A stretch of 36,953 bases of DNA from Candidatus Bathyarchaeota archaeon (lineage in GTDB: Archaea > Thermoproteota > Bathyarchaeia > Bathyarchaeales > SOJC01): contig JAGLZW010000032.1 in assembly GCA_023131225.1 (NCBI GenBank), forward strand, positions 1 through 36,953, read 5' to 3'. A model generated the notes under the pieces. That model was given only the letters and a program-made list of their open reading frames with translations. It was not told where the DNA came from and searched no databases. This document shows positions 6,279-28,997 of the stretch, piece by piece. The position numbers and the translations under genes were made by a program. Each line of letters opens with the position of its first letter. The first letter of the stretch is position 1.

Positions 6279-6282
6279 AACG

Positions 6283-6423: not shown

Positions 6424-6488
6424 TGTCAAAAGCAAGAAGGATCAATTGCGACATACACTACATAATAAATATCTATAGGTGATTTGAA

Positions 6489-6644
6489 ATGGTACGTGAA
6501 ATACGTAAAAATGGCGAGAAATTTTACGTGTGCGAGATATGCAAGCTCTTGTATAAGAAAAGATTATGGGCTGAAAAATGCCAAGATTACTGCGCAAAAC
6601 ATAACGCTTGTTCTCTAGAGATTACGAGTCACGCATTAAAGTAG
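6489..6644 (+). CDS. Small Cys-rich protein (MVREIRKNG type), 51 aa
   Basis: The protein reads MVREIRKNGEKFYVCEICK, followed by a region with WAEKCQDYC and KHNACSL. Cysteines at 15, 18, 31, 35 and 41 with H38 suggest a small zinc-binding fold. To my knowledge related archaeal miniproteins are found near metal-transport genes, in keeping with the copper operon before it and the broken FTR1-like permease after it. AGGTG lies seven bases before the ATG. The function is unknown. Confidence 0.7.
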   Translation: MVREIRKNGEKFYVCEICKLLYKKRLWAEKCQDYCAKHNACSLEITSHALK

Positions 6645-6822
6645 CGGAAAGGTGAATTTGGAATTGTCCTTCTATTATCACCATCTCAACGAGAGATGAC
6701 CTAAAGGATTCTGCAGAGGCTGGATTCGGCCCGACATACTGAAAATCTGATTATGCACAAACATCATGACCCGAGTGAAATGGGATTAGAAAAACTGATT
6801 TAAGAAAAATGGGAGAACAATA

Positions 6823-6990
6823 TTGTTGATTGGCCAATTTTTACTGGCTTTCAGGGAAGCCTTGGAAGCGGCACCAATGATAGCTATAATTTTGGCATAT
6901 TTTGTGCATTCACAATATCAACAACAATCTACTTGTTAGGTTATAAAGCATCGGAAGAAGCCAGAAAACCGAGTGGGAGCCGCATAAAAA
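6823..6990 (+). pseudogene. Broken FTR1-like iron permease
   Basis: From a TTG at 6823 or 6826, behind GGGAGA, the frame reads IGQFLLAFREALEAAPMIAI and ILAYFV, then stops at 6937-6939. FREALEA followed by a hydrophobic stretch is the first transmembrane segment and REXLE iron-binding motif of FTR1/ferrous-iron permeases. In the next frame, from about 6903, comes another hydrophobic segment, CAFTISTTIYLLGYKASEEA. This suggests a gene with its middle deleted. The remains end at the element-end repeat (6986-7048). FTR1 proteins usually have about seven membrane helices, so this is not functional. Confidence 0.6.
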
Positions 6991-7241
6991 ATGGGGATTT
7001 GCGGAGTGATATCACCACTGGTCGCTGGTTCAAACCCGGCCCTCGGCACTTCACCCTCTTTCATAAAAAAAGCTAAACCAAGAAACTTTGAGCTTGCCTG
7101 TAGATTTTGAGTCTCCAGATAATCCAAAATGCTGTTTGGGCCTTGTTCGGTGATTCTTGAAAGATTTAATCTATGGGTTCTCGCCCTTTTGACAACGTTT
7201 TTTGGAAGGCAAAGATTTACTGGTATTCCTAACAAGCTCAA
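6936..7241 (-). pseudogene. Ribbon-helix-helix gene (remnant) reading into the tRNA-derived att site
   Basis: The first 50 or so residues, from a TTG at 7241 or 7235, read IPVNLCLPKNVVKRARTHRL and NLSRITEQ followed by NSILDYLE. This is the strand-helix-helix pattern of CopG/CcdA-like regulators. The frame then runs on antisense through the tRNA fragment, giving RAGFEPATSG, and on to a stop at 6936. GFEPATS peptides are typical products of antisense T-arm sequence. A small regulator gene abutting the att site is a feature of archaeal integrative elements as I know them. No convincing start context is seen, and ITEQGPNS departs from the expected helix, so it may be decayed. Confidence 0.45.
6986..7048 (+). 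repeat. Element-end repeat copy A with tRNA-Phe 3' fragment (att junction)
   Basis: The left part (6986-7020) contains AAAAATGGGGATTTGCGG and the palindrome GTGATATCAC. It is shared with the copy at 19464-19519 and with the reverse copy at 34095-34158. The right part (7021-7048) repeats tRNA-Phe 992-1019 with one mismatch, including T arm and 3' acceptor strand. This is the expected layout of a right-end junction, the end of an inserted element followed by the duplicated tRNA end. Because a ribbon-helix-helix gene of a second element starts directly after it, it looks like a junction between two stacked elements. Confidence 0.7.
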
Positions 7242-7288
7242 TAGCTTCGCTTTTTAAAATATAGGAGTCGACTTCCCCTTTAAGCTGA

Positions 7289-7702
7289 ATGTCCCATCTT
7301 TATCTATATTTCATAATCCTTACTTCAATGAGTCACCATATCAGTTTTGAAAGATATTTCCTGAGGGAAAAAAGCTTGATGGATAGTACAAAAAGAAAGC
7401 TTTTGTATTTACATATTATTCCTCTTTGTTGTTGGGCGTTCGATTTAATTACGACTCTATATGTTATAGATTATCTAGGCGTGGCGGGAGAAATGAACCC
7501 TCTAGGCTGGCCTTTAGGAGCTTGGGGAGCTTTGATATTCTATATCCCTACTCTTTTGTTCACCTACTTACTTTTGTTCAGAATTCAAAACAGATATTCT
7601 GGTAGGGTTGCAGCTTTAATAACAATAATGGCTTTGGGATTTGGAGTTATGAATTTGTTAGGGGGGTTGCATAACATTGGTGTTGCAAGTCTATATACTT
7701 GA
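7289..7702 (+). CDS. Small multi-span membrane protein, unknown function
   Basis: The 137-residue product is mostly hydrophobic after residue 37, with spans near 38-60, 77-98 and 107-127. FDLITTLYVIDYLG followed by EMNPLG resembles small membrane proteins with D-x2-TT and E-x-NP motifs (DUF5658-like); this is tentative. A TATA-like TTTTAAAATATA at about 7252-7263 would place the transcript start close to the ATG at 7289, favouring a leaderless message. The ATG at 7379 (residue 31, MDSTKRKLL) just before the first span is an alternative start. It is the first rightward gene inside the element. Confidence 0.6.
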   Translation: MSHLYLYFIILTSMSHHISFERYFLREKSLMDSTKRKLLYLHIIPLCCWAFDLITTLYVIDYLGVAGEMNPLGWPLGAWGALIFYIPTLLFTYLLLFRIQNRYSGRVAALITIMALGFGVMNLLGGLHNIGVASLYT

Positions 7703-7717
7703 GGAAGGTAAGGAGGG

Positions 7718-7876
7718 CTAGCCTCCAAATACTCTCAAATTTGCCTTATCGTAGACAACCTTTAACATCTTAATTCCATGGGGAGTATAGTGTTTAACAA
7801 AAACATTTTTTTGGAGTGCGCGTGCATTCTCATGTATTATGGTATCAAATCCAAGGTCTTGCTTGAAACCGATAGT
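7718..7876 (-). pseudogene. Possible gene fragment, no start codon
   Basis: A minus-strand frame of about 52 codons reads LGFDTIIHENARALQKNVFV, then KHYTPHGIKMLKVVYDKANL and RVFGG before a stop. The composition is convincingly protein-like, yet a stop lies just before it and no usable start exists until a late ATG. It could be the tail of a gene cut off during assembly of the element, or chance. The family is not recognised. Confidence 0.25.
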
Positions 7877-7882
7877 TTAATA
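7875..7882 (+). promoter_or_regulatory. TATA box of the integrase gene
   Basis: GTTTAATA lies about 29 bases before the integrase ATG at 7908, so the message would start at or next to the ATG. No ribosome site is present, which fits a leaderless transcript. Confidence 0.45.
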
Positions 7883-7907
7883 TTGAGATACCGCATTAAA
7901 TACTGTT

Positions 7908-9029
7908 ATGCAAAAGCTTGAGAAATACAGAAAACTGCTAGAAGAGTACAAGAGAAACCCCAAGTCTTCCAAGACGAGAACACACGAAGTTTTCATTCAT
8001 GACTTCCGCGAAGTTGAAGAGTGGTTAAGTAGCCGTCCAGAAGAAACTAGGAGAGGTTTCGCGAGTCGGCTTTTAAGATTCTGCATGACTATGAACGTTG
8101 AACCTGAAGAGTGGCGTAGCCTAGACAAGTTTAAGGCTAGAGATTTAGCGTGGAAGTATGTCCAAGCAAACGTGAGAGATCACCCATCCGTAGCGCGAAG
8201 CGACTTAACCGCGTTGAAAAGCTTCTACAGAAACAAAGATGGTGAAAGGCTTCCTTTCGACAGTGGCAGAGGCGGCAAACATTATTTCCACATGACCCTG
8301 AAGAAAGCTGCAATCGAGCACATACCTAACAAGAAGGAAATGTTCCAGATTATTGATATGGCTGGCAACCTTCGAGATAAAGCTCTCTTACTATTTCTCT
8401 TTCAAAGCGGCGTAAGAGTGAATGTTGTAGAGCACATAACTTATGGCGACGTGAAAGACCAGCTAGAGCAAAACACAATAACCTTGAAGATTACGCCACA
8501 ACTAGACTACAAGCTAAGAGGACGCGACATAAATTTCTATTACACCTTCATTAACGGCGAAGGCGCAACCGCTTTAAAGCGGTTCTGCGAGGTCAAACAT
8601 AAAGAGAGCAGCCCCAACAGACCATTATTCGCCACGTACGGAAATAAGGCGATAAGCCAAAGCTACGTGTGGGAAATAGTGAAGAAATGCGTGAAAAGAA
8701 CAGGGTTTGACCCGAAAACAATCACTACACACACCATAAGGAAAGCCTTCCGCAAGATTGTACGGCAAACAAACATTGACGACGATGATAAGGAACAACT
8801 GATGGGGCACGTGATTTCTGGAAGCCGCGCCGCGTACTACGACAGAAAAGACATGGATCTAATAAAGAAAGCATATCAACACTGCAACTTCACGCGGGAA
8901 ACGCCACATTCAGAAACGTTGAAGCTTAGAGATCAGCTAGAAACCGAGAGAGTTGAACGTGCAAGCCTTGAGAAGCGTATAGACGCGCTTGAAAGCTTGC
9001 TTCGCCAGTACATAAACGGGGAAGGCTGA
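7908..9029 (+). CDS. Tyrosine recombinase (integrase)
   Basis: The 373-residue enzyme would integrate and excise the element at the tRNA-Phe att site. The N-terminal part (about 25-110) looks like a SAM-like core-binding domain. The catalytic domain shows R170 (SGVRVNVV), a lysine in the beta hairpin (K202), the H275-x2-R278 box (THTIRKAF), H301 (LMGH) and the nucleophile Y310 or Y311 (RAAYYDRK). All essential positions are intact, so it is likely active. A C-terminal extension after residue 336 is a charged coiled coil (LETERVERASLEKRIDAL). The gene is complete and not split by the att site, unlike SSV-type integrases. Confidence 0.93.
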   Translation: MQKLEKYRKLLEEYKRNPKSSKTRTHEVFIHDFREVEEWLSSRPEETRRGFASRLLRFCMTMNVEPEEWRSLDKFKARDLAWKYVQANVRDHPSVARSDLTALKSFYRNKDGERLPFDSGRGGKHYFHMTLKKAAIEHIPNKKEMFQIIDMAGNLRDKALLLFLFQSGVRVNVVEHITYGDVKDQLEQNTITLKITPQLDYKLRGRDINFYYTFINGEGATALKRFCEVKHKESSPNRPLFATYGNKAISQSYVWEIVKKCVKRTGFDPKTITTHTIRKAFRKIVRQTNIDDDDKEQLMGHVISGSRAAYYDRKDMDLIKKAYQHCNFTRETPHSETLKLRDQLETERVERASLEKRIDALESLLRQYINGEG

Positions 9030-9078
9030 AAAAACTCTAACGTTAGAAAAAAGAAGGGGTTTTAGGGGCGAAAAGCCT

Positions 9079-9387
9079 CTAACTTTCTTTGCCATCTTCT
9101 GGATTGTCAGGTGTTGAAGTGATTGCTATGTGCATCCACTTGTTGTTCCAACAATCTTTCTCAGCGTGCCTGTAGGCGTTTGGGTCGCTTATGAAACTTT
9201 GAAGTTCTTGATGTAGCAGCTGCACTTCTCGATAAACTGTCTCTCTACAGAAGTCTTCAACAGGGTATTTGCTGCCGAAAAATGTCAAATACTCTTTTAT
9301 GAAGTCGTAGAAGGGCTTGTAGAGAGTTAGCTTCACCGTAACCATGTTTTTGTCTAAAGTCTTCTCCACTATTGCTTTTTCACTCAT
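9079..9387 (-). CDS. Ribbon-helix-helix-like small protein
   Basis: The product has about 102 residues. MVTVKLTLYKPFYDFIKEYL and the following VEDFCRETVYREVQ resemble the strand-helix-helix DNA-binding fold. A longer C-terminal part contains WNNKWMHIAI and an acidic tail. ATG at 9387 is chosen because AAGGTGA is seven bases upstream; a GTG four codons earlier (9399) lies too close to that site. It is divergent from the AbrB gene across a 120-base promoter region and may be a repressor of one or both. The family assignment is tentative. Confidence 0.65.
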   Translation of the reverse strand: MSEKAIVEKTLDKNMVTVKLTLYKPFYDFIKEYLTFFGSKYPVEDFCRETVYREVQLLHQELQSFISDPNAYRHAEKDCWNNKWMHIAITSTPDNPEDGKES

Positions 9388-9511
9388 GTTTTCTTTCACC
9401 TTCTCCTATTGTTTATTTCTAACGTAAGATACTCTAAAAGTAATCCTACAATCTTCTATAGATATGCTTATATTTAAAACCATCTCCTATATTCAGTGAA
9501 AGGTTTTGAGT

Positions 9512-9667
9512 ATGCCTGTTAAGTTTGAGTTAAGCGTCATGCAAGTAGGAAACAGCTTGAGAATCACGATTCCTAAAGAAGTGTGTAAGCACCTAGAGAT
9601 AAAGAAGGGCGATGTGGTTAGGCTTTGGGTTGATAACGGCCACTTCATAGCAGAAAAGAAGGAATAA
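9512..9667 (+). CDS. AbrB/SpoVT-type regulator, 51 aa
   Basis: The protein reads MPVKFELSVMQVGNSLRITI, then PKEVCKHLEIKKGDVVRLWV, the swapped-hairpin AbrB fold with the VGNSLRITIP signature. It would act as a dimeric DNA-binding regulator. A TATA box (CTTATATTTAAAA, about 9467-9479) precedes it. The next gene follows two bases after its stop, so they form one unit. A second AbrB paralogue lies at 14423. Confidence 0.85.
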   Translation: MPVKFELSVMQVGNSLRITIPKEVCKHLEIKKGDVVRLWVDNGHFIAEKKE

Positions 9668-9669
9668 CC

Positions 9670-10164
9670 ATGCCTTTCGTGAACGCAAACGACCTTTGCT
9701 CTTCCTGTGAATGTAATATTCAGCAACCCAAAAACCGAGAAATAATTAGCAGTCTTTCAGACCTATCCACACTTCCAAGAGTTTGTATTTTCGGAGAGGA
9801 AAGGCAGAAAGGCAAAGTTGTTGAGTGTGACAAGTTTAGAGAAGTAGCAGGTGCTTTCAAAATGACATGCCCTCTTTGCAACGCTGAATTTTATGTCTAC
9901 TTTGACTTTGATGATGATACTAATAGAATAGATGTTGCTGAAGATAAGTGTCCAACATGTTACGCTAACCTTAGGGTTCAAGCAAGACAAGAAATCTTAA
10001 CACCAACTCTTAAGGAATGGAAAGAAACTGGGGAAATGACGAAGAAACTGGGGGCGGGATGGCGTGTCTATCCTAGTTGCAACAAAGCGCAAAGTGTAGC
10101 TGTTATGGCTAGAGATCAATTTAGGGAGTTTCCAGAGTTTTTAGAGCAAGAAAAGAAGGAATAG
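9670..10164 (+). CDS. Cys-rich zinc-ribbon-like protein, unknown function
   Basis: The 164-residue protein has three cysteine groups: C10-SS-C13-E-C15 near the start, MTCPLCNAEF (about 66-74), and DKCPTCYANL (about 92-101). The middle and last pairs together make a four-Cys zinc ribbon. The C-terminal third (WKETGEMTKKLG and beyond) is helical and lacks motifs. GAAGGA before the ATG is in the end of the AbrB gene, implying coupling. No enzyme activity can be inferred. Confidence 0.72.
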   Translation: MPFVNANDLCSSCECNIQQPKNREIISSLSDLSTLPRVCIFGEERQKGKVVECDKFREVAGAFKMTCPLCNAEFYVYFDFDDDTNRIDVAEDKCPTCYANLRVQARQEILTPTLKEWKETGEMTKKLGAGWRVYPSCNKAQSVAVMARDQFREFPEFLEQEKKE

Positions 10165-10167
10165 GCT

Positions 10168-10227
10168 TCTCCGCCGAGGCGGAGAGACTTTCAGTTCAAA
10201 TGAACTAGAAGTTAATCGCTAAGCGAT
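10168..10227. repeat. Three consecutive perfect inverted repeats
   Basis: TCTCCGCC-GA-GGCGGAGA (10168-10185), AGTTCA-AA-TGAACT (10193-10206) and ATCGCT-A-AGCGAT (10215-10227) follow each other within 60 bases. They start four bases after the zinc-ribbon gene and lie in the gap before the convergent leftward operon. The first could end transcription. Three in a row also suits a protein-binding array or an origin. Confidence 0.6.
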
Positions 10228-10426
10228 AGAGAATGTCTATACTTTTGCTGTCTTCTATGAACAAGTTTAACTTTTGGGGCAGTTAGGGTATGGGTAAACC
10301 ACTCAAAAACAGAAAGTTGCTACGGTGTGGCGAGTTGTCACTTTCTTGTCTAAAGATTACTACACATGGCCAATAACGCAAATTTTACCAAATTTTGTAA
10401 AACTTGCTGCACGCCACCGTTGAATT

Positions 10427-10609
10427 TTAGAATTGCATTTCACGCCAACAAGACACATGATAATACTTACGCCCATTCTTTGATTTTTTACAAACCACGG
10501 TTTCGCCAGCCTTTAGAGGCTTCATGCAACGCCTACAGAACCCCTTCCTTCCTACGCGGCTGAGGATTTGAGAGGTTAAAACCACATGTTTGTCAGTTTG
10601 AATTTGCAA
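10427..10609 (-). CDS. Small zinc-finger protein, 60 aa
   Basis: The C-terminal 40 residues contain FCRRCMKPLKAGETVVCKKS followed by KYYHVSCWREMQF. C24, C27, H51 and C54, with C41 as a further candidate ligand, suggest a treble-clef or LIM-like zinc finger. The N-terminal part has TDKHVVLTSQILSRVG. The start is TTG at 10609; AAGGTA before it overlaps the TAA of the 833-aa gene, so translation is coupled and it is the last gene of the leftward operon. Its role is unknown; nucleic-acid or protein binding is likely. Confidence 0.75.
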   Translation of the reverse strand: MQIQTDKHVVLTSQILSRVGRKGFCRRCMKPLKAGETVVCKKSKNGRKYYHVSCWREMQF

Positions 10610-10611
10610 TC

Positions 10612-13113
10612 TTACCTTTTCCTCGCTCGTCTTCGCTTAGTCTTCTTCACCTTTTTAGTCTTGCGCTTCTTCTTTTTGCGTGGCTTAGGAACAGAGAACC
10701 CAAACACCTTAGCGATCTGGCCTGCCGTCGCCATTTTGTGAGTGCGTTTGAACCATTCACCAAACAGGTCGTCTCGCCGTTTCCGTTTTGGTTTGAGCAA
10801 CTCTTGCCGAAATGAAAATCCCCATAACTGTGGTTGAAGTTGTGACTGTTTCATAAGTTGTTTTTGAAGCTGCACTTGAATTTGTGGCTGTATCTGCTCT
10901 TGTTTTAATAGTTGTGTTTCAAGTTGTTTCAGTAAGGAAGATTGCTTTAGGAATTGTTTTTGCGCTTGTTTCCCTAGTGAGCCAAGCCCAAGCACCTCTG
11001 ACGTTGTCAGCAGCGACTTAGGAACTTGCCCTACGGTGATAGCTTGTATGTCTGTTGGGTATGGCTTCAGCTTCAACGCGGCTAATTCTTTGCCGTAGAT
11101 TCTAGGGAACTCTTTAGGGTAAAGTATCGGGTACTGCTTGGGAATCGTCATAATCACGGTTTTCGCTTTGCGTTTAGGCTTCTGTCTCGGCGGGATTGTT
11201 TTCACGCCTAAAACGGATGCGGCACCAATTAAGCTTAAGCGCTTGCCTGTCTGCTTCGTAACTTGCATGGTTGTTTGCTTTACAATTAAAGCCATGCCTT
11301 TCCCTGAAGGCGTGACAACTCCTAGAGAACTCATTAAATCTACTGTGGCTTTTGAAGGTGTAAAAAGCCCTTTTTTCGGCACGACTCCTATTAAGCCTCT
11401 GGAAGGTGCAGAGGGAACGTAGTGGATCCGCCAAGCCTGAATCTGTATCCCATACTTGTATTCTTTAAAGAAGTCTGCTGCTACTCCGTGCCACTCATAC
11501 ATGGGAGAAGTCTTAACGGCTTTAGGTAGAAACTCCTTAACAGTTGCTCCCATCTCATACATAGGACTTGTTTTAACGAGTTGCTTCAAGCCAACGCCAT
11601 ACTGTTGAAGCTGTGGAACGCCAACTACTTTGAAGGCTAGTTTAGCTTCCTTTCCTATGCTGTAAACTGCCTCTCCCGTTTCCCACATTGGAGAAGCTTT
11701 GAAAAGCTGAGTTACTTTGCCTCCGAACTGTTTAATCTGTGGCACCGTTGCAGCCTTGAAATAAAGGTAGCGTTCTTTGCCTACACCGTAAACTGCTTTT
11801 CCCATTTCGTAGAAAGGAAAGGTCTTGAAGGTTTTAGGAGCGTAATAGGCTGCTGCTTCGCCCATTTCATAAAAAGGAGACGTTTTTAATAGTGAAACTG
11901 CACCTTTCTTTGCAGAGGGCAAATACACGTTTGACATGAGCATTTTCGCTTCTTTCGCTATGCTATAACCACGTTTGCCAGCTTCATAAAAAGGATAGAA
12001 CGGGGATGTCTCCCAAAGTTCTGGTGCAACTCTTGAAGCTGTGGCTTTAAACCCTGCCATTTTCGCTTGAGTGACCCATTTAACTTGTTTGCCAAGTAGG
12101 TACGATTCTTTTCCTGCTATGTAGAAAGGTGAGGTTCTAACAACGGTTGAAACGTAAGGCCTTACCGCTTTGCCCATCTCGTAAAACGGGAAGGTCTTAG
12201 CAGCAGAGGGAATGTATGGCTTTACGGATACTCCCCACTCGTACATGGGGGAAGTTTTGGCGATTTTAAAAGCGGGTTCTGCAACGTACTTGTAGGCTTT
12301 TGCCCCCACCGTTTTCGTGGCGACTACTGTTTTTTTGCCTGCCCATTTAGCACCACTCCAAGCTGTACCTACCACTTTTGAGATTCCTTTTCCAACTAAA
12401 ATGTCCCCGTAGAGGCTGCCTGCAATTTCAAGCGGGTGCCACTCTTTAACTTCCTCTAAGCCACTTGGATCACCTAGCAACGCAGAAATTGCAGCTCCCG
12501 ACGCAACTACAGGAGGCTTCCCCAACCCTTTCACGCCCGCGATTGTCGCAACTGTGTAAACAAAACTTTCTCCAGATCCAAAGGCTCTAGCAGCAAATTT
12601 TCCAGAAGCCGCACCCGTTTTCACCCGCTCCCATTCGAGAGGACTAAAGCCTTCACCACGCATCATTTTCTCAAACTGTTCTTCTTGCTCCTTATGCTGC
12701 CATCCAGTGAAAAAGTCTAAGACTTGTTCCGTGATTGACTTGGGTAGTGCTGGTTCTTTTACTGTTGGTGGTTGGAATGTTATGTCGTAAAAAGTTGTTC
12801 TCTCAGGCTTCGCAGCTACAGCCACCACGTCGAAGATTGTTGCTTCTTTTTTCTGAGCTTTAGCAACAACCTCTTCAAGCTCGTCACGCTTCGTAACCGA
12901 TAGAATCATACTACCCGTTGGAATATCAGTGGATACGCCATAACGAGCTTCTAATTCTTCCTTTGTAGTTGGTGGCTTACCTGCTGCCACCACCATATCG
13001 TACATGTCAATTTTGCCACTCTTATCAATGTCCAAGTATTCTTTGTATCGTGGATCGCCTCGGCGTGCGCCGTAAGCAGCTTTAATTTCACTTGTAGTTG
13101 GTACTTGAGACAA
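10612..13113 (-). CDS. Giant repeat protein with dockerin-like loop and basic tail
   Basis: I do not recognise the family of this 833-residue protein. Residues 19-45 (GDPRYKEYLDIDKSGK, then IDMYDM) carry a dockerin/EF-hand calcium loop: D28, D30, S32, G33, I35, D39. Nine copies of a TSP[FM]YExG motif begin at 286, 306, 326, 368, 410, 430, 472, 514 and 534, so the steps are always 20 or 42 residues. The longer units also share a segment such as YSIGKEAKLAFK. Residues 714-762 are rich in Gln, Leu and Lys. The last 35 residues are almost all Lys and Arg. The start is a TTG three bases after the stop of the preceding gene. A structural, tape-measure-like or DNA-organising role in a virion or plasmid is an inference. 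Confidence 0.85.
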   Translation of the reverse strand: MSQVPTTSEIKAAYGARRGDPRYKEYLDIDKSGKIDMYDMVVAAGKPPTTKEELEARYGVSTDIPTGSMILSVTKRDELEEVVAKAQKKEATIFDVVAVAAKPERTTFYDITFQPPTVKEPALPKSITEQVLDFFTGWQHKEQEEQFEKMMRGEGFSPLEWERVKTGAASGKFAARAFGSGESFVYTVATIAGVKGLGKPPVVASGAAISALLGDPSGLEEVKEWHPLEIAGSLYGDILVGKGISKVVGTAWSGAKWAGKKTVVATKTVGAKAYKYVAEPAFKIAKTSPMYEWGVSVKPYIPSAAKTFPFYEMGKAVRPYVSTVVRTSPFYIAGKESYLLGKQVKWVTQAKMAGFKATASRVAPELWETSPFYPFYEAGKRGYSIAKEAKMLMSNVYLPSAKKGAVSLLKTSPFYEMGEAAAYYAPKTFKTFPFYEMGKAVYGVGKERYLYFKAATVPQIKQFGGKVTQLFKASPMWETGEAVYSIGKEAKLAFKVVGVPQLQQYGVGLKQLVKTSPMYEMGATVKEFLPKAVKTSPMYEWHGVAADFFKEYKYGIQIQAWRIHYVPSAPSRGLIGVVPKKGLFTPSKATVDLMSSLGVVTPSGKGMALIVKQTTMQVTKQTGKRLSLIGAASVLGVKTIPPRQKPKRKAKTVIMTIPKQYPILYPKEFPRIYGKELAALKLKPYPTDIQAITVGQVPKSLLTTSEVLGLGSLGKQAQKQFLKQSSLLKQLETQLLKQEQIQPQIQVQLQKQLMKQSQLQPQLWGFSFRQELLKPKRKRRDDLFGEWFKRTHKMATAGQIAKVFGFSVPKPRKKKKRKTKKVKKTKRRRARKR

Positions 13114-13116
13114 GGA

Positions 13117-13485
13117 CTAACCCTTCTTCTCTTCTTTTGCACAGAAAAAAGCAGTGCCAGCACCAAGAATCAAAAAGTAAGAATCGGTTTCCCAAATCGG
13201 CGTTCCAAACTTATCTGAGAGTTCAATAATCGTTTTGAAATTCACGTAAATTTGGGTCTGGCCTGGCTCAAGAACCAAGGTTTTAACCTGATAGATGACT
13301 GGCTTGAAATTTTCTTTCTTAACGCGGTGAACCCCATCATAATTCGTGGCATAGAAAGCGTGTGGGCTTTCATAGATTTTGTTGGAAATCTTTTTGAGTT
13401 GATCAAGGCTTTTTAAGTCGAACAAAACCTCGCCGTCGAGGTGGAGTGTCTCGATTTGAATGGCTTTGGGTTTTCTCAGTCTCAC
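13117..13485 (-). CDS. 122-aa protein of the leftward element operon
   Basis: The sequence is not recognised. It starts MRLRKPKAIQIETLHLDGEV, has a helical middle (LDQLKKISNKIYES) and then a beta-rich half with VIYQVKTLVLEPGQTQIYVN and ETDSYFLILGAGTAF. The C-terminal half could form a beta sandwich, as in many small structural proteins; that is only an impression. The GTG start overlaps the TGA of the AT-hook gene by four bases (GTGA), with GGAGAGGT upstream, so the genes are coupled. Confidence 0.72.
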   Translation of the reverse strand: MRLRKPKAIQIETLHLDGEVLFDLKSLDQLKKISNKIYESPHAFYATNYDGVHRVKKENFKPVIYQVKTLVLEPGQTQIYVNFKTIIELSDKFGTPIWETDSYFLILGAGTAFFCAKEEKKG

Positions 13486-13613
13486 TTTTTACCTCTCCTC
13501 TTCTTCCTCTTTTTCTTTCGTTCGCAGTTCTGTCGTCTCCAGTACTTCCTCAAGATTTTCTGAGCTTTGCTTCCCGACTTGAGTCTAGGCCTTCCACGTT
13601 TCTTCTTCGCCAC
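13482..13613 (-). CDS. AT-hook basic miniprotein, 43 aa
   Basis: The product begins AKKKRGRPRLKSG, a canonical AT-hook core (RGRPR), and continues KAQKILRKYWRRQNCERKKK with more Lys and Arg to the end. Over half the residues are basic. It should bind the minor groove of AT-rich DNA or condense the element's DNA. The start is a GTG with GGGAGTAG before it, and its end overlaps the next gene by four bases. It is the first gene of the leftward operon, directly behind two tandem operators. Confidence 0.72.
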   Translation of the reverse strand: MAKKKRGRPRLKSGSKAQKILRKYWRRQNCERKKKRKKRRGKK

Positions 13614-13614
13614 A

Positions 13615-13683
13615 TTTCACTACTCCCAGTGGTGAAACAGTGTTTACCACTATTAGTGGTGAAAAGGTTGCTTATAGATTTTA
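13615..13683 (-). promoter_or_regulatory. Promoter with two tandem palindromic operators
   Basis: TTTCACTACT-CCC-AGTGGTGAAA (13615-13637) and TTTACCACT-ATT-AGTGGTGAAA (13643-13664) are two near-identical inverted repeats with their right arms 27 bases apart. A minus-strand TATA-like TCTATAAG lies at about 13672-13681, so the start site falls within the second repeat. A dimeric repressor bound there would shut off the AT-hook operon. The winged-helix or AbrB proteins encoded next door are candidates. Confidence 0.6.
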
Positions 13684-13772
13684 CCAAGTAAAATAGATTT
13701 TTTCAAGAACAACATTTGCACAAGTGTGCAAATGGTCTAATCTGGGTACATGTACCTCTATGTTGAATGTGT

Positions 13773-14333
13773 CTATTCATCTGGAAAGGCAAACTTGTAG
13801 AGATCCTTAGCTGCCTTCTGAATACCCCGTTTTACAGATTCAACTTCATGAGCTGCTCTCTTAATCTCTCGGCGTTCACTACTTGTAAACCGCGCCCAAT
13901 GACTCCCTATCAATGTTAGCCAATCTTCTGCTTTTGCAACTCTTCCATAGCCTAAGGTTGCTTTTCCAGCTAACCGCAAAAGCTTTGCCATTGTTTTCTG
14001 TGAGAGCAAATTGGTGAGTTGCAAGTATTCTTTGTAGTTGGGTAAATGTTTTTCATAGTTTATTAGCGCTTGATGGAGTATTTTTTCGTCGCCGTAAGCC
14101 ATGGCGTAAGCCATGCCTTTCTCTGTGAGCCTATACTCCTTGATTAATCCGCGTCTAGTTTTCTTTATTACTATACCTGTTATATAGTTCCTTTCTTCTA
14201 GGGAATGCACCGCTTCATTAATTGATTTGTAATCTTTGGCTAGTCTTTTAGACATTGGCTTTATCAACAAGTCGGGGGATCCAGCAAGAAGTTCTAAAAT
14301 GCTATGTTGGTTTATTGCTTTTTTCTTAAGCAT
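13773..14333 (-). CDS. Winged-helix transcription regulator
   Basis: The 186-residue protein has an N-terminal winged helix: HSILELLAGSPDLLIKPMSK, then YKSINEAVHSLEERNYITGI and a wing ending EYRLTEKGMAYAM. The rest is helical and charged (LSQKTMAKLLRLAGKATLGY, then SSERREIKRAAHEVES) and may dimerise. It probably regulates the element's own genes. It is divergent from the AbrB gene at 14423 across a 90-base region filled with inverted repeats, and its promoter region also faces the leftward operon downstream. The ATG lies within CACCATATG, part of a repeated motif. Confidence 0.8.
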   Translation of the reverse strand: MLKKKAINQHSILELLAGSPDLLIKPMSKRLAKDYKSINEAVHSLEERNYITGIVIKKTRRGLIKEYRLTEKGMAYAMAYGDEKILHQALINYEKHLPNYKEYLQLTNLLSQKTMAKLLRLAGKATLGYGRVAKAEDWLTLIGSHWARFTSSERREIKRAAHEVESVKRGIQKAAKDLYKFAFPDE

Positions 14334-14400
14334 ATGGTGTTCCTCTTTTTCATCGCCATATGGCGTTTATGGTGTGGTAATACCCACCATATTATAATAT
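14331..14400. promoter_or_regulatory. Divergent promoter region with CCATATGG-type operators
   Basis: CGCCATATGGCG (14354-14365) is a perfect 12-bp palindrome. TATGGTG (14368-14374) and CACCATA (14385-14391) form a second inverted repeat, and CATATGGTG recurs at 14331 over the start of the leftward gene. ATTATAATATA (14391-14401) is the TATA box for the rightward AbrB-to-replication operon. The related half-sites suggest one regulator controlling both directions. Confidence 0.55.
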
Positions 14401-14422
14401 ACTAACGAGGTGTATAACACTT

Positions 14423-14611
14423 GTGGTTATAAAAATGCACAAGGAAACTAGAAAAATCATCCGTGTCGGCAACAGCCTAGCCGTTACAATGCCGCCATCA
14501 TGGCTGCGATACTTCAATTTGACGGATAAAGATCGCGTTACGGTACTATCAGATGGTAATGTCGTCATTCAACCCATAAAAAGGGAGGTGGAACCCAACG
14601 AAAATAAGTGA
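14423..14611 (+). CDS. AbrB/SpoVT-type regulator, 62 aa
   Basis: After a short leader segment the protein reads IIRVGNSLAVTMPPSWLRYF and continues LTDKDRVTVLSDGNVVIQPI, the AbrB fold with the VGNSLAVT signature. GAGGTG lies ten bases before the GTG at 14423; an ATG at 14435 (residue 5) is also possible. It is the first gene of the rightward replication operon and is likely a regulator of it. It resembles the AbrB protein at 9512 in fold but not closely in sequence. Its 3' end overlaps the next frame and contains that gene's ribosome site. Confidence 0.83.
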   Translation: MVIKMHKETRKIIRVGNSLAVTMPPSWLRYFNLTDKDRVTVLSDGNVVIQPIKREVEPNENK

Positions 14612-14951
14612 CTTAGACGAGTTTTTACACGCTGATTCTGTTGAAGACGGAAGCACGATCGAAATTACAGGGAAAGCTCGATACATCAGTAGTGAGGAGT
14701 CAACTTTCGGGCGTGCCTACTTGGAAATGCCAGTAAAGTTACCCGATGGTAAGGCTAAAATATGGACACCTAATAAAACAACGCTTAAAAAATTGGCTAC
14801 GGTCTTTGGTGACGATACTGATGGGTGGCTAGGTAAAAGGGTTAAGCTGTCTATTTTGAAGCAAAACGTTCGAGGGGAAATGCGCAACGTTGTCTATGGC
14901 GAGGCTGCCGTTCAACCCTTAACAGATCAACTGCAACCAAATTTAAGGTGA
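14604..14951 (+). CDS. 115-aa protein of the replication operon, non-canonical start
   Basis: The frame reads SDLDEFLHADSVEDGSTIEI, TGKARYIS, then GRAYLEMPVKLPDGKAKIW and later LGKRVKLSILKQNVRGEM. The single-domain, beta-rich pattern with a final VVYGEA strand recalls small single-stranded DNA-binding or OB-like proteins, but I cannot name a family. No ATG, GTG or TTG occurs at the N-terminus. GGGAGGTGG at 14583-14591 is followed by ACG (14598) and ATA (14604), so an ATA or ACG start is implied. The first standard start, TTG at 14721, would remove 39 residues. It lies between AbrB and a zinc ribbon, ahead of the prim-pol gene. Confidence 0.65.
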   Translation: MSDLDEFLHADSVEDGSTIEITGKARYISSEESTFGRAYLEMPVKLPDGKAKIWTPNKTTLKKLATVFGDDTDGWLGKRVKLSILKQNVRGEMRNVVYGEAAVQPLTDQLQPNLR

Positions 14952-15097
14952 TGCAGTGCGAACAATGTGGAAAAACAATCAATATCCGCTTTTTTGTTCC
15001 TATAAGAAACCCCTTGAGAAGAATTTTGAATAGTTTGTCTCAAAACTTGAAGGAAGGCGCTTGGGTTTGCAAGAAATGTCTGAAAGAAAAAAGGTGA
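14951..15097 (+). CDS. Zinc-ribbon miniprotein, 48 aa
   Basis: The protein begins MQCEQCGKTINIRFFVP and ends WVCKKCLKEKR, so two CxxC pairs (C3/C6, C40/C43) flank a basic middle. This is a four-Cys zinc ribbon. The ATG overlaps the preceding stop (TGATG) and AAGGTG is directly upstream, so it is translationally coupled. Its position just before the replication protein suggests a role in replication or its control. Confidence 0.75.
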   Translation: MQCEQCGKTINIRFFVPIRNPLRRILNSLSQNLKEGAWVCKKCLKEKR

Positions 15098-15106
15098 GTT
15101 GCGACT

Positions 15107-17632
15107 TTGGACAAAGACTTACAGAGCTATATTGATTTCTACCTTAAGCTTAGCTTCGCAATCGTCCCAGCAATATATGGCAAAAAAAGACCTAGTGTTG
15201 AATGGAAAAAATACCAAGAAAAAACGCCTTCAGAAAAACAAATTAGAGAATGGTTTAGCGGCAACAAGCCTCAAAACATTGCCGTTGTCTGTGGTGTACC
15301 TAGTGCTAATCTTGTGGTGTTGGACTTTGACGACCCAACAGTTTACCCGCGATTCTTTGACACATCACAAATAGAGAAAGAAACGTTAGTGGTGAAAACT
15401 GGGTCTGGAAAGACTCATGTTTATCTACGTTCCAAGAATCCTATTGCAAGCTTTACGATTCCACAGTTAAAGCTCGAAATACGTTCCGACAAAAACTTGG
15501 TGATAGCACCACCAAGTAAACACCCGGGTGGGGAACTCTACACCTTCGTAAACCAAGCTGATACGCTCATTCTAGTAGATGATTTGGAAGAAACTGTGTG
15601 GCGAAAGGCCGAGCAGCTAGGAGTTAAAAGACCTAGAGATTTCATCTTAGAAGATTCGAGTTACAGAGGTAAACAAGTTTACGAAGGCGGAGATCCGCCT
15701 TGCATTGAAGTTATGCTTAGAGGCGTGAAAGAGGGAACACGCAATCATGTTGCAGTACGCCTTTGCGCTTATTGGTTATGGTTTAGGCGAGAACAGAAAG
15801 ACAAGGTTAAAAGCCTTCTTAATGGTTGGAACGCGCGAAACGAGCCTCCACTTCCAAAAAGCGAATTAAAGGACATTTTCAAAGCAGCCTTAGGACTCCA
15901 GCGGAGTTATGGCTGCCCTAAAAACCAAGCTTGGTGCAACATCGAAAAATGCGCTTTGAAGAGAAGCCAACTCCTAAGGAGAAGGGCAGAAGAAGAAGCA
16001 GAGCAGATTCTAAATAACCCATCGATGTTGGATGCCCTAACTCCACACTTGGACAACATTGTAGCTGGTGAAGACGCAAACAAGAAACTGACGTTCATAC
16101 TCTGCTTAAGTGGAAAATGTAAAGACCCGAAAATGAAGCAGATCGTACTCTTTAAAGCTGAAGCAGGCGCAGGCAAAACCCGATTAATGCGCATAGCTAA
16201 CGCCTTTAAAACCAAGTCTGTAGGGAGATTCACAAGTCACGCTTTAGATTATTCCGATTTGCAAGACTTCGAGATTTTGAAGCTGAAAGAACTGGGTGCT
16301 ATGGATCAAGAATTTCAGGGCGTTTCAACACTCAAATTTGTTAGTAGTGATGATGAAGGCTATACCGTTGAATGCACAGAGCGTGACGAACGCGGAAGAT
16401 TTACAACAGGACAACATAAAGTTCCGCCTATTACTCTACTCAGCAGCACTACGCGCATAAGCTTGGATCCACAGTTTGAACGTCGCGCTTGGATAGTAAA
16501 CCCTGATGAGTCAGAGGAACAAACAGAACGCATTCGCAAGTGGAAGGCCAAACATGAAAGAGAAAAATCGTTAGTTGCTTTGGCTTTGATAAAGGAGACA
16601 AGCGCCGATCATAGTATGCGCATTCTGAAAGCTGTCGCTGAAAAGCTTGAGCCTTTAGACGTGGTTTTGCCTTTTCCAGATACGGTTACGAAGATTCTGA
16701 AAAGCAAACGACTTAGGATTAGAGGCGACTTCGATAAGGTGCTCTCACTTGTTAAGCTTCACGCTTTATTATATCAACGCCACTTACCCAAAGCTAAAGC
16801 CAACGGCAAAAAAGTTGTTTTTGTAACACCAAAATCTGCTATTGAAGCCCTAGAGCTTGCGGAGAAACCATTCGTAACTATGACTACGGAGTTAGGGGGA
16901 CGTAGCCGAAAAATCATTAAAACCCTTAAGAAAGAAGGCTTGGACAAAAAAAACTTAACAATAAACCATGAGACCCGAGAGAAAATTGCTGTCCAACTGA
17001 ACAGAAGCGACGCGACTGTCTACAAGTTTTTCAAAGAATGGTGCAGCGCTGGATACATGAGCATGACAAAAGACACAACTAAGAAAGGCAGCCCCGTGAC
17101 TTTCAAGCTTCTCCACGATATAAGCTTCGTTGAAGGAAAGAACGCCGTTACATTCGACGATTTAAACGCAAAGACTAAGATAGGCTTGGACATGCAAAAG
17201 GAAGCAGAAATGTGGCTAGATGGCATTATCGGCGAAATCACCCTCACGGATGGGTATTCCGAAAAGACGTTGAAGCAAGCAATGGTTTTCGACACTTCTC
17301 AAATTAGCCCATCCGTAGAGCAAGTTTTGACGAGAATGCCAACTGGGCAAGAACCAAGCGTATCTAGCGAAACTGGGCAAGCGTTAGTCTTTGCGTCGAA
17401 AACGCAGACAGTAAATAACCCCATTCAAAAAAATGATATACTAGACGGAGAAAAACTGCTTTCAATTATCGAGTTAGATGAGCCTCATAAAGGGAAATGT
17501 GTAAAGTGTGGTTTGCAAGCAACTCTCTATTATCAAATCATGAATTTCAAAGGTCAATGGGGTCATGTCTGCAATGACTGCGCAGCTAATCTTCAGAAGG
17601 GAATGAAAGCGCGGCGCGAGGTGATTTCATGA
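15107..17632 (+). CDS. Replication protein: primase-polymerase with P-loop ATPase
   Basis: Residues 1-160 form a prim-pol domain, with D73-F-D75 (VVLDFDDP), H104 in SGKTHVYL and the IAPPSKHPGGELY segment near 133-145. A Cys cluster, C270, C277 and C282 (YGCPKNQAWC), follows. The second half carries a Walker A at 352-359 (EAGAGKTR), an acidic stretch at 396-403 and SSTTRISLD, which resembles the sensor region of a helicase-type ATPase. The C-terminus ends in a CxxC...CxxC zinc finger (KCVKCG, VCNDCA). Prim-pol plus helicase is the layout of pRN1-type plasmid replication proteins that prime, extend and unwind. The TTG start has AGGTGA nine bases upstream. Confidence 0.87.
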   Translation: MDKDLQSYIDFYLKLSFAIVPAIYGKKRPSVEWKKYQEKTPSEKQIREWFSGNKPQNIAVVCGVPSANLVVLDFDDPTVYPRFFDTSQIEKETLVVKTGSGKTHVYLRSKNPIASFTIPQLKLEIRSDKNLVIAPPSKHPGGELYTFVNQADTLILVDDLEETVWRKAEQLGVKRPRDFILEDSSYRGKQVYEGGDPPCIEVMLRGVKEGTRNHVAVRLCAYWLWFRREQKDKVKSLLNGWNARNEPPLPKSELKDIFKAALGLQRSYGCPKNQAWCNIEKCALKRSQLLRRRAEEEAEQILNNPSMLDALTPHLDNIVAGEDANKKLTFILCLSGKCKDPKMKQIVLFKAEAGAGKTRLMRIANAFKTKSVGRFTSHALDYSDLQDFEILKLKELGAMDQEFQGVSTLKFVSSDDEGYTVECTERDERGRFTTGQHKVPPITLLSSTTRISLDPQFERRAWIVNPDESEEQTERIRKWKAKHEREKSLVALALIKETSADHSMRILKAVAEKLEPLDVVLPFPDTVTKILKSKRLRIRGDFDKVLSLVKLHALLYQRHLPKAKANGKKVVFVTPKSAIEALELAEKPFVTMTTELGGRSRKIIKTLKKEGLDKKNLTINHETREKIAVQLNRSDATVYKFFKEWCSAGYMSMTKDTTKKGSPVTFKLLHDISFVEGKNAVTFDDLNAKTKIGLDMQKEAEMWLDGIIGEITLTDGYSEKTLKQAMVFDTSQISPSVEQVLTRMPTGQEPSVSSETGQALVFASKTQTVNNPIQKNDILDGEKLLSIIELDEPHKGKCVKCGLQATLYYQIMNFKGQWGHVCNDCAANLQKGMKARREVIS

Positions 17633-17727
17633 GCGAAGACACACAATATGTGCGCATTCCTAAGAAAGTAATTGAGCACATTTTATCGGAGCTTAAGAAG
17701 ATCCGTGAGTCTCTGAAGCGGGCTTGA
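17629..17727 (+). CDS. 32-aa miniprotein after the replication gene
   Basis: The product reads MSEDTQYVRIPKKVIEHI and LSELKKIRESLKRA, one short strand followed by an amphipathic helix, like half of a ribbon-helix-helix or a small helical dimer. The ATG overlaps the stop of the replication gene (ATGA), and GAGGTGAT is six bases upstream. The good ribosome site and the overlap argue that it is real despite its size. Confidence 0.6.
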   Translation: MSEDTQYVRIPKKVIEHILSELKKIRESLKRA

Positions 17728-17802
17728 TTTTTCAGAGCTTACGAAAATAAACGACAATGTTAAAAGTTAAACAAGTATAGAGAAAGTGAAGGAAGTATAA
17801 AC

Positions 17803-18759
17803 ATGAGCTTGAAAGATCAACCTAAACTTGTTCAAGACATAATTTTTGCCATTGATAATGACCGTTATATGTGGATGCCTATTTGGGGTGAAGCAAGAAC
17901 GGGGAAGACTACGCTTGCTTTGCTGTTGATGTTTAAGGTCTATCAAGACTGGGATAAGGTTTTGGGCGCTGTCATTTTCGATTTGAACGGTTTGCTTTAC
18001 AAGATGCAGAAAGGTGAACCCGCGCTTTTCCCAACTGTAGTGAAGCCCGTTCACATGAGGGTTCCGATTCTTCTTTGGGACGACTTTGCAGCTAAGTCGG
18101 GAAAGGCTCAGACTCAGCACGAAAGAGCCTGGGATGTGTTCAAGGGTGCGTTTGACACGTTAGGCACTAGAATCTCTGTTCTTCTTGCAACTATGGTTAA
18201 TCCGCGAAGCCCAACAGAACAACTACTACAGAAGTACACGCATGAAATCTTAATCCACATCCGCGAAGATGGGAAAAGAGTTTACAAATACGATAAATGT
18301 CGGATGCAGCAGGACTTCGTTGGATGGAGAAGCCGACAGCGTAAAAGGTGGTTAGAGTCACAAGTGTTTGGCAAGGTTCCGTTAGATGTGTTCAAACAGT
18401 ATGACGAGATGAGGACAAGCCTAGTTGACGAAGTGTTCGTGAGCATGCAGGACGCTATGGCAGAGGACACAATAGATCGTCTAATGAAGAGAGTGCAACC
18501 CATAGACTATGAACTACTGTTCTTAATTGAGCAGTCGGGCATGGTTAATTACAGGGGAATAATGAAGTCTTTAGGCAATTCTGGAAAACAAAGTCTAACA
18601 AGGTGCAAAGCTAGAGGACTAGTAACACCAGTGCGACGTTCCCAATCCTACTACGTTTACGATATCACAGACCTGGGGCTTGACTTGTTAAAATCAAAGC
18701 AAGTACAAGACGGAAAACAAGCACAAGCATCACAAAAATCAAAATATAACATTGATTAA
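17803..18759 (+). CDS. P-loop ATPase with C-terminal winged helix
   Basis: The 318-residue protein has Walker A GEARTGKTT (29-37) and Walker B VPILLWDDF (87-95). TRISVLLATMVNP (about 132-144) matches the sensor strand. The fold looks like a DnaC/IstB-like or packaging-type ATPase; the fit is too loose to choose. Residues about 240-300 look like a winged helix (LLFLIEQSGMVNYRGIMKSL, then LVTPVRRSQSYYVYDITDLG). It may load the helicase, partition the element or pump DNA. GAAGGAAG precedes the ATG. It closes the rightward operon, followed by hairpins at 18763-18836. Confidence 0.78.
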   Translation: MSLKDQPKLVQDIIFAIDNDRYMWMPIWGEARTGKTTLALLLMFKVYQDWDKVLGAVIFDLNGLLYKMQKGEPALFPTVVKPVHMRVPILLWDDFAAKSGKAQTQHERAWDVFKGAFDTLGTRISVLLATMVNPRSPTEQLLQKYTHEILIHIREDGKRVYKYDKCRMQQDFVGWRSRQRKRWLESQVFGKVPLDVFKQYDEMRTSLVDEVFVSMQDAMAEDTIDRLMKRVQPIDYELLFLIEQSGMVNYRGIMKSLGNSGKQSLTRCKARGLVTPVRRSQSYYVYDITDLGLDLLKSKQVQDGKQAQASQKSKYNID

Positions 18760-18762
18760 TTA

Positions 18763-18836
18763 CTCTATAAATAGAGAAAGAAGAAGGCTGTCACAGTCAA
18801 CAAAATGGTTGTGCATGTTTTTAATGGTTTAACCAT
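18763..18836 (+). terminator. Inverted repeats after the ATPase gene
   Basis: CTCTAT-AA-ATAGAG (18763-18776) lies five bases after the stop, and ATGGTT-T-AACCAT (18824-18836) follows at the end of the gap. They are perfect six-base-pair repeats. They could mark the 3' end of the operon, though archaeal termination does not need hairpins. Confidence 0.35.
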
Positions 18837-18943
18837 AGCGTCACCTTAAGCTTTCAACTGTTGTATTGCTTGATACCTTCATATTCAAGATTTCTTAAAA
18901 ATATCAAGCCAGAGATGCATTAATGCGAGAGCATGTTTGAATT

Positions 18944-19360
18944 TCAAGAGGTTCGTAATGTTGCATCATTAGGTATGATATCAGTCCCACATCTGGGACA
19001 GAACTTGGAATATGTTGGAAGCTTTTTCTTACATTGCGGACATGTCATCAGCAATGCAACATCAGCTTTCTGAAGCATCACCCACTTCTCACTGCTGGAG
19101 TGATGGATCGTAGGAGAATGCTTGCAAAGAATGTGAAAGCCTGTACCATATCCACCAATAGCTAAAGCTGCGCCCCCGAAAAGAAGGGATAAAGTTACTA
19201 GCCCATATTTTCCTCCTATTCTGAAATCGTATTCTCGTACGATGGGATTCCCTGGAAAACTGTAATCTACATATTCATTAGTTACAATATTTCCCAAACC
19301 AGCAACAAGGCCTAGAAACACCGAGCCGAAGATGCCAAACGTGATTAGAACATAAGGCAT
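18944..19360 (-). CDS. Membrane protein with C-terminal zinc ribbon
   Basis: The 138-residue product has two hydrophobic segments (about 3-24 and 53-78). The loop between them holds NEYVDYSFPG and EYDFRIGGKYG and may lie outside the cell. The end carries a zinc ribbon, MTCPQCKKKLPTYSKFCPRCG. The ATG at 19360 is chosen because GAGG lies nine bases before it; a TTG five codons earlier is less likely. It is the last gene before the right boundary of the element. Whether it belongs to element or host is unclear, since archaeal chromosomes have many such proteins. Confidence 0.7.
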   Translation of the reverse strand: MPYVLITFGIFGSVFLGLVAGLGNIVTNEYVDYSFPGNPIVREYDFRIGGKYGLVTLSLLFGGAALAIGGYGTGFHILCKHSPTIHHSSSEKWVMLQKADVALLMTCPQCKKKLPTYSKFCPRCGTDIIPNDATLRTS

Positions 19361-19463
19361 CGCAAGTGTCCTCAAAAGGTTCCCCAGCTGCTATATGCAA
19401 GGCTATAAGAAAAAAGCGTTATGAATCCCAAATCTTGTCTATGGGCGCAGTTATAGAGTAAAC

Positions 19464-19519
19464 AAAAATGAGGAATTGCGGGTGATATTTCCATTTGACT
19501 TGGGTTTGAACCCGGCTCT
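19464..19519 (+). repeat. Element-end repeat copy B with decayed T-arm (right boundary)
   Basis: AAAAATGAGGAATTGCGGG, then TGATAT, matches the left part of copy A at 6986-7013 with a few substitutions and one deletion. It is followed by GGGTTTGAACCCGGCTCT, a T-arm with three changes from the tRNA-Phe version over 16 bases. The acceptor strand is lost. It lies 39 bases before the DUF362 gene end and is the best right boundary for the integrase-bearing element. Confidence 0.6.
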
Positions 19520-19557
19520 ATTTACAACTATGTGCGTGCCTTTGTACTGATGGTTTG

Positions 19558-20763: not shown

Positions 20764-20855
20764 GTTGATCCCCTTTCAATCTGGTGAAGACTCTGGTCTA
20801 ATAAAACCTTGTCGGTTTACCCTCATTTTATGTGCATAGCAACACAAACATAGAA

Positions 20856-20904: not shown

Positions 20905-21004
20905 TAGATAGATGGCGCTTGTGTACTCTCTTATTTACGCGGCGAGTATGTTTGGAAAACCATAAAAATTCGTCGCCTTTATCACTATATTCTTGGTGTT
21001 GTTT

Positions 21005-28963: not shown

Positions 28964-28997
28964 CAGATTCCTTTTATCAGTTAGTAAGGTAAGGCAT

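Follow-up and report, generated by a model that had tools for sequence, protein, structure and literature searches.

Which kind of mobile element has inserted itself into a Bathyarchaeia genome when its genes include an integrase, a plasmid-type replication protein and a virus-type ATPase? The question is raised by contig JAGLZW010000032.1 of assembly GCA_023131225.1 (Candidatus Bathyarchaeota archaeon; G000), a genome of 1.92 Mb in 50 contigs of which this is C32. The window analysed here is the whole stretch of 36,953 nucleotides. An earlier note on this DNA had proposed an apparently undescribed family of integrative element, plasmid or virus, at 7021-19519, bounded by tRNA-derived repeats. 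We find an integrated mobile element at 7859-18872, as that note had suspected, within other limits. From its gene content we read it as a plasmid-virus hybrid that resembles pSSVx and is possibly a satellite, outside any named family (probability roughly 0.5). That it is a mobile hybrid of some kind seems very probable, while a helper-dependent transfer step, argued by analogy, has about an even chance.

The limits come from the genus-mate G001, which is 98% identical in a neighbouring protein and is, in a genus covered by two genomes, the sole other one compared. On its contig C8, the window segments 7070-7865 (95.6%) and 18863-23908 (93.2%) align to adjoining parts; comparison with a relative lacking the insertion, which the earlier note had suggested, shows contiguous flanks. 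Because TTGCTTG stands at 7859 (left core, attL, 7859-7865) and again at 18866 (right core, attR, 18866-18872), and the site is empty in G001, the insertion measures 11,007 bp (7859-18865) plus the second copy of the 7-bp core, ending at 18872. By this comparison the element is integrated at the core, and 7021-19519 has to be given up. The empty site reads ..AAGGTCTTGCTTGGTACCTT.. at the G001 join, and the core sits within AAGGT-N10-ACCTT, a 5-bp inverted repeat around ten bases that was read by eye. Two convergent genes, whose ends are separated by 233 bp, enclose it; intergenic attachment sites have been recorded for archaeal integrases (relevant passage of PMC8371274). In the window these two genes flank the element at 7289-7702 and 18944-19375. 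The limits of the earlier note had taken them in as cargo, but both are present in G001 and belong to the host flank. Two further genomes, G153 and G145, have the right flank gene, and the left gene was not found in the stretches read, which gave no third empty site. Base composition gives no hint of the insertion, with a G+C content of 0.43 inside it and of 0.43-0.44 in its flanks. The tyrosine integrase gene (7908-9029, plus strand, 373 amino acids (aa); PF00589 at 49.1 bits against a cut-off of 27.1, phrog_216 at 7e-15) starts 42 bp inside the left core. It is intact and undivided, and the core is not within it. It retains the R, HxxR, GH and Y positions, which are visible in the alignment with the integrase of genome G535.

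The tRNA-like repeats (6987-7043 and 19464-19520) lie about 0.8 and 0.6 kb beyond the element ends. They are alike beyond chance (score 42, against 33 for the best of 100 shuffled pairs), and the right copy falls in the 93% block common to the window and G001. Since both copies stand outside the insertion defined by G001, they were rejected as attachment sites and do not bound the element. Rfam did not recognise the repeats as tRNA; six loci gave just one true tRNA and a weak tmRNA piece. Related copies are dispersed in the genome, with 13 matches at E<=10, the query itself counted. They form a degenerate repeat of approximately ATGGGGATTTGCGGGTGATATCTCCACT, several copies of it followed by a tail resembling a tRNA 3' half (GGTTCAAATCC). 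The repeat also occurs on contigs C1, C7, C16, C20, C22, C25 and C36 of the window genome, and one copy has 27 of 28 bases in common with the 3' end of the tRNA-Phe at 945-1021.

Within these limits the main genes are open and tightly packed. From left to right they run integrase (plus), 106-aa protein (minus), AbrB2 (plus), 164-aa Cys-rich protein (plus), a leftward operon with a giant protein and a leftward winged-helix (wHTH) regulator, and then, rightward, AbrB1, a 76-aa protein, a 49-aa Cys-rich protein, the PrimPol protein and the ATPase. The complete tyrosine recombinase, the prim-pol/ATPase replication protein, the P-loop ATPase with a winged helix, the two AbrB regulators, the Cys-rich miniproteins and the operon with an AT-hook protein and a periodic giant, all named in the earlier note, were recovered. 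The replication protein (15107-17632, plus strand, 841 aa) matches PF09250 at 1.9e-20 (74.4 bits, cut-off 22.8) and ORF904 of pRN1 in the PDB at 5.8e-5. Its layout comprises PrimPol, a PriCT-1-like part, a second P-loop of helicase/ATPase type, a weak helix-turn-helix (HTH_6, 0.089) and a C-terminal CxxC...CxxC zinc finger, recognisable by its CxxC pairs. The protein also matches plasmids, among them those of Sulfolobus (NC_006906, NC_005907) and Thermococcus (NZ_CP040847), and by these similarities the gene is a PrimPol-helicase replicon of the archaeal-plasmid type. Counting its own genome, 13 of the 162 order genomes have relatives at E<=1e-10, mostly beside an integrase and usually without a B-251-type ATPase; the 11 other genomes of the family have none. 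Among 25 loci compared for shared genes, which were picked for having matched, so that the counts give no frequency, the PrimPol protein has 18 members, usually with an integrase nearby. G035:C68 has two PrimPol genes with identical scores (9437-11893 and 26950-29406; L071 and L072), separated by 17.5 kb; an integrated element may have been duplicated in tandem there.

The second component is a P-loop ATPase with a C-terminal winged helix (17803-18759, plus strand, 318 aa). It matches phrog_5484 at 2e-14, and the ATPase of pSSVx matches the same family at 6.6e-32; by sequence, SSV1 B-251, the pSSVx protein and this ATPase are members of one family. This family is found in fuselloviruses, bicaudaviruses, guttaviruses, the pleomorphic viruses of Archaeoglobales and pSSVx. 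Searched with the window protein, 5 of 50,697 phage records match, all from pleomorphic viruses of Archaeoglobus or Geoglobus, and one of 72,556 plasmids, which is pSSVx (tblastn 2e-3). The pSSVx protein matches 72 phage records, among them SSV1 'ORF B-251', and, in the same plasmids, pSSVx itself alone. Genome searches detected the ATPase in 5 of the order's 162 genomes (E<=1e-5), 7 of 256 from the class (1e-6) and 11 of 398 sampled from the phylum (1e-5), nine of these 11 weakly; the family's 11 other genomes are without it. At 1e-4, phrog_5484 is matched in 23 of the 162 order genomes, with G045, the window genome and G010 below 1e-12. As a lone marker it is unspecific at weak E-values (matches in 5 of 14 control genomes), and its counts are lower bounds, the first look having missed G048. 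A structure model (mean predicted local distance difference test score, pLDDT, 72.6; five sequences) shows the P-loop domain and the winged helix. Among its Foldseek matches to viral models at E<=0.001 are ATV ORF286 and a protein of a Nitrosopumilus spindle-shaped virus. PDB matches are to distant RecA/ORC/RFC-type folds with low TM-scores and do not discriminate between packaging and replication.

Next to these two genes, no convincing capsid or membrane protein was seen in the element. None of the 10 proteins scanned has a PHROG capsid match, and neither a main gene nor any other open reading frame (ORF), barring two short frames discussed below, reaches a mean Kyte-Doolittle hydrophobicity of >=1.6 over 19 residues. 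For the viral loci used as comparison, the same rule gives 15 ORFs in L028, 8 in L037, 6 in AvPV1 and 5 in ApPV1; it gives 0 of 9 in L030 and 1 of 14 in the plasmid-like element L068. The two-helix VP1/VP3 capsid proteins of Fuselloviridae had no PHROG match in the 10 proteins and no credible hydrophobic ORF save the two doubtful frames.

A PrimPol replicon together with a B-251-type ATPase is the combination described for pSSVx in passages of PMC9608457 and PMC4158269, and AbrB-like and wHTH regulators are also placed on pSSVx in parts of PMC9608457 and PMC4027180. The statement of the earlier note that its combination of genes matches no known archaeal virus or plasmid thus holds for the element as a whole, which no named one in the collections searched matches, but not for this pairing or for the regulators. 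pSSVx (NC_010011.1), the fusellovirus satellite of S. islandicus, shares with the element the ATPase family and a PrimPol protein of the pRN1 type, so described in a passage of PMC4158269, and its gene table records no capsid genes. It differs in its 5.7 kb, in the A154-type partner (phrog_6627) and CopG, and in having no integrase in its gene table, whereas the element is twice as long, integrated, equipped with the giant/AT-hook operon and without recognised partner or CopG. Small prim-pol integrated elements without capsid genes have been proposed as integrated satellites (a section of PMC4158269).

From the protein families we infer the following scheme. The integrase would excise a circle through the core, the PrimPol protein would replicate it, and AbrB1, AbrB2 and the wHTH protein may control whether the element stays integrated or becomes active. 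Once it is active, the operon of AT-hook, 122-aa, giant and zinc-finger proteins might coat or condense the DNA. The ATPase might load it into membrane-bound particles that a spindle-shaped or pleomorphic helper virus would supply. The same has been proposed for pSSVx, and for this step we follow the view of B251/A154 and pSSVx given in a passage of PMC9608457. By analogy, the element may be transferred in this way.

The operon, read leftward with gaps of -4 to +3 bases, holds four genes on the minus strand. The AT-hook protein (13482-13613, 43 aa, KKRGRPRLK) comes first and overlaps by 4 bp with a 122-aa orphan (13117-13485) that has no Pfam or PHROG match. The giant follows (10612-13113, 833 aa), and a 60-aa zinc-finger miniprotein is last (10427-10609; sub-threshold PHD/RING-like Pfam matches, a homologue next to the G010 ATPase at 3e-5). 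The giant has no Pfam or PHROG match. It carries nine copies of [TA][SF]P[FM][YW] at spacings of 20, 20, 42, 42, 20, 42, 42 and 20, a Q-rich stretch and a very basic end, K and R making up 63% of its last 30 residues. Among 164 distinct ORFs of >=350 aa in the loci read, two have >=40% K/R in this segment, the giant with the highest value and a 1063-aa protein of G535 with the second; the 890-aa giant of G048 stays below 40% and hence was not grouped with them. Of 500 shuffles, 9 had a mean helical moment at least as high as that of the repeat region, which hints modestly at amphipathic helices. The N-terminal piece looks by eye like a dockerin or EF-hand loop, for which Pfam gives no call. 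Against the 162 genomes, ORF matches cover residues ~10-55 alone, plus a poor match with stops at 609-685. Homology among giants is not significant by phmmer (0.03 against G535, 0.18 against L037, G048 not listed); a short EP.LPKS.TEQ motif common to them was noticed post hoc and does not count as a test. The single-sequence model (mean pLDDT 40.6) is unusable.

A second element was found in G535, a genome of the same taxonomic class (C3, 298273-311078, loci L165 and L163; 12.8 kb). It ends in exact 21-bp repeats (score 42, against 26 for the best of 100 shuffled comparisons) and encodes an integrase, a wHTH protein, AbrB2, a topoisomerase-like protein, a helicase, the 1063-aa giant with its very basic tail, a 150-aa partner and, last, the ATPase. 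Integrase (8e-52, 35% identity over 315 aa), AbrB2 (3.9e-15) and ATPase (1.5e-6) are shared with the window; both elements begin with the integrase and end with the ATPase, and each has a basic-tailed giant. They differ in that the G535 element has a partner gene, a tRNA-like site with 21-bp repeats, and a helicase plus topoisomerase-like protein (phrog_6247) in place of the PrimPol protein, which matches the helicase at only 0.0015. By eye, the G535 site resembles a tRNA with an intron; neither L163 nor L165 yielded a tRNA call with ARAGORN. The undescribed family proposed in the earlier note therefore gains some support, since the layout of integrase, AbrB, ATPase and giant is repeated in G535; its standing as a family rests on these two elements. 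Single modules are shared more widely: G047:C128 has wHTH, AbrB and the 49-aa protein in the window's order, G010 has ATPase, partner and zinc-finger miniprotein without an integrase in the stretch read, and G048 has ATPase, partner, the 890-aa protein, an MCM-like replication protein and an integrase. This is a pattern of modular exchange.

Several observations weigh against a pSSVx-like satellite. PHROG labels the ATPase family 'DnaA-like replication initiation protein', and since it is so annotated, the ATPase may act in replication only. A small partner gene precedes the ATPase in the other loci examined, but no A154-like partner was recognised in the element: phrog_6627 had no match in 10 of the 15 listed window proteins, and phmmer with the pSSVx partner against 6 of them gave nothing. 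CopG had no match among the window proteins scanned with Pfam, AbrB and wHTH being there instead. Two hydrophobic frames, of 81 aa antisense to the AT-hook gene (13446-13691) and of 33 aa (14304-14405), would overturn the statement on membrane proteins if either were real. No helper virus turned up in this genome, where no search was aimed at one. Excision, replication and packaging are all inferred steps, and what the giant operon does is conjecture. A plain integrative plasmid that forms no particles, with a virus-derived ATPase as replication initiator or loader and a giant operon for DNA segregation or compaction in the cell, would account for some of this. It agrees with the PHROG label, with an AT-hook and basic tail that suit a nucleoid or segregation role, and with the PrimPol replicon, integrase and AbrB/CopG/wHTH set that is common in the order (PrimPol relatives in 13 of 162 genomes), usually without the ATPase. 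Elsewhere, though, the ATPase family occurs almost exclusively in viruses and one satellite, and its pairing with a giant recurs in G535 without the PrimPol protein, which leaves the plasmid a possible but doubtful choice.

That capsid genes were simply lost from a provirus is unlikely. The ATPase is viral and decay products do exist, such as the G010 locus and a decayed relative of part of the element at G001 C5; here the main genes are uninterrupted and closely spaced, neither the integrase nor the cores show decay, both cores being present and the integrase intact, and in the G535 element, with its ends intact, no fusello-type major capsid protein (MCP) candidate was seen either. The companionship of a giant basic-tailed protein with a B-251-type ATPase in the window and G535, again with no conventional MCP candidate, would also suit a complete virus of unknown type with the giant, AT-hook and 122-aa proteins as virion components. 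This is quite improbable given the lack of structural homology, the poor giant model and viral-contig scans with the ATPase, an ATPase alignment, the giant, a PrimPol alignment and the 122-aa protein, none of which (five of five) found a relative. We consider it improbable, too, that the two elements represent a new capsid-less, virus-derived family that makes its own DNA-transfer particle, in which the giant Pro-punctuated, basic-tailed protein and the AT-hook protein would coat DNA and the ATPase would drive it into membrane vesicles without a helper capsid. Least credible by far is ordinary host DNA deleted by the genus-mate. With two genomes in the genus a third empty site is not demonstrable, but the join is precise at a 7-bp core flanked by an inverted repeat, an integrase lies at one end, the gene content is foreign, and none of 11 other family genomes has the ATPase or the PrimPol protein.

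Other named systems resemble the putative pSSVx-like hybrid in part. Plasmids of the pRN1 family combine PrimPol with CopG and PlrA; the element departs from them in that no CopG was found among the proteins scanned with Pfam. Thalassapleoviridae (AvPV1 and relatives) share an ATPase relative, gp10 in AvPV1 and ApPV1, but also have proteins like VP3 and VP4 and, in AvPV1, like a spike, of which the window shows no recognisable counterpart; for VP3/VP4 of Thalassapleoviridae and Pleolipoviridae, no recognisable membrane protein was seen in the element, AvPV1 VP3/VP4 not having been matched directly to every window ORF. In Fuselloviridae the SSV-type integrase gene is split by integration, whereas that of the element is intact and without the core. 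For the MCPs of Fuxi-, Kunpeng-, Chiyou- and Huangdiviridae there was no capsid PHROG match in the element, their published genomes being compared by description only. Huangdivirus, a spindle-shaped Bathyarchaeia provirus, shares host class, integrase and integrated state, and is set apart by VP1-VP3 and an ATV-type AAA+ ATPase, as described in a part of PMC10848311. Likened again by description, the small arCOG07809/Mpal_2033 elements of Makarova et al. 2014 (a section of PMC4158269) show what may be the same PrimPol, helicase-type P-loop, HTH and Zn-finger order, of which PrimPol and P-loop are clear in the window protein, and likewise an integrase and no capsid genes; that text mentions neither a B-251-type ATPase nor a giant protein. 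Literature searches, confined to open-licence PubMed Central (PMC) papers, brought up no description of such an element in Bathyarchaeia. Searching the element DNA against the 162 order genomes for CRISPR spacers gave matches of 25-46 bases at 80-96% only, none like a full-length spacer, which is weak evidence of absence.

The remaining genes are small. AbrB1 (14423-14611, plus, 62 aa; PF04014 2.6e-9) has homologues in G047 and G035, and AbrB2 (9506-9667, plus, 53 aa; PF04014 1.3e-9) that of the G535 element; both are AbrB/MazE-type regulators above the Pfam cut-off. The wHTH regulator (13773-14333, minus, 186 aa) has sub-threshold MarR/PadR/HVO_A0114 matches and a homologue in G047:C128 (7e-12), where the Cys-rich 49-aa miniprotein (14948-15097, plus) also recurs (5e-22), in the same order with AbrB1 and wHTH. 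The 164-aa Cys-rich protein (9670-10164, plus) is zinc-ribbon-like by its CxxC pairs, with sub-threshold zinc-finger matches only. The 76-aa protein (14721-14951, plus) has a homologue beside another integrase of the same genome (C29, 4.8e-9), and the 106-aa protein (9079-9399, minus) is an orphan among the compared loci, with no Pfam or PHROG match. PADLOC found no defence genes in 10 element proteins.

Some related loci were seen along the way. The decayed relative in the genus-mate (G001:C5 11643-13566, L148) lies elsewhere in that genome and is 84-88% similar to window 8965-9057 and 9376-9666. L037 (QMWT01000036.1, 1837-9392), a viral-looking contig of a Thermoprotei metagenome-assembled genome, encodes a B-251-type ATPase with partner, a 93-aa strongly hydrophobic protein, a 546-aa surface-type protein (phrog_11333 match) and a 365-aa protein with a basic C-terminal part. 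L028 (WRCX01000027.1, 8385-13786) from Bathycorpusculum combines ATPase and partner with a degenerate recombinase-like gene and several small membrane proteins in a row; it may be a virus that contains a membrane, and is a candidate helper of the kind envisaged. L029, L030, L068, L149 and L154 each have a second, small recombinase-like gene (187-281 aa), which adjoins the ATPase in L029 and L030 and a different P-loop gene in L149. The window genome as a whole (1.9 Mb) has 20 tyrosine-recombinase matches, 14 over the Pfam cut-off, and is rich in integrated elements. In the left flank, a copper-type P-type ATPase gene (3795-7070) is 65-73% alike in the parts aligned with G001, against ~93% in the flanks, and window ~6227-7069 is missing there, which looks like local gene replacement plus an indel.

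In a published survey of viruses from Bathyarchaeia, a provirus was called only where structural proteins were present, as stated in a passage of PMC10848311, and elements like this one would therefore have been missed. Archaeal satellites are known chiefly from Sulfolobales, with pSSVx as the example. The pairing of PrimPol and B-251-type ATPase in Bathyarchaeia suggests that plasmid-virus hybrids are older or have arisen repeatedly, and the giant basic-tailed protein, found together with the ATPase in both elements, stands out as a specific candidate for an unknown function in DNA packing or transfer.

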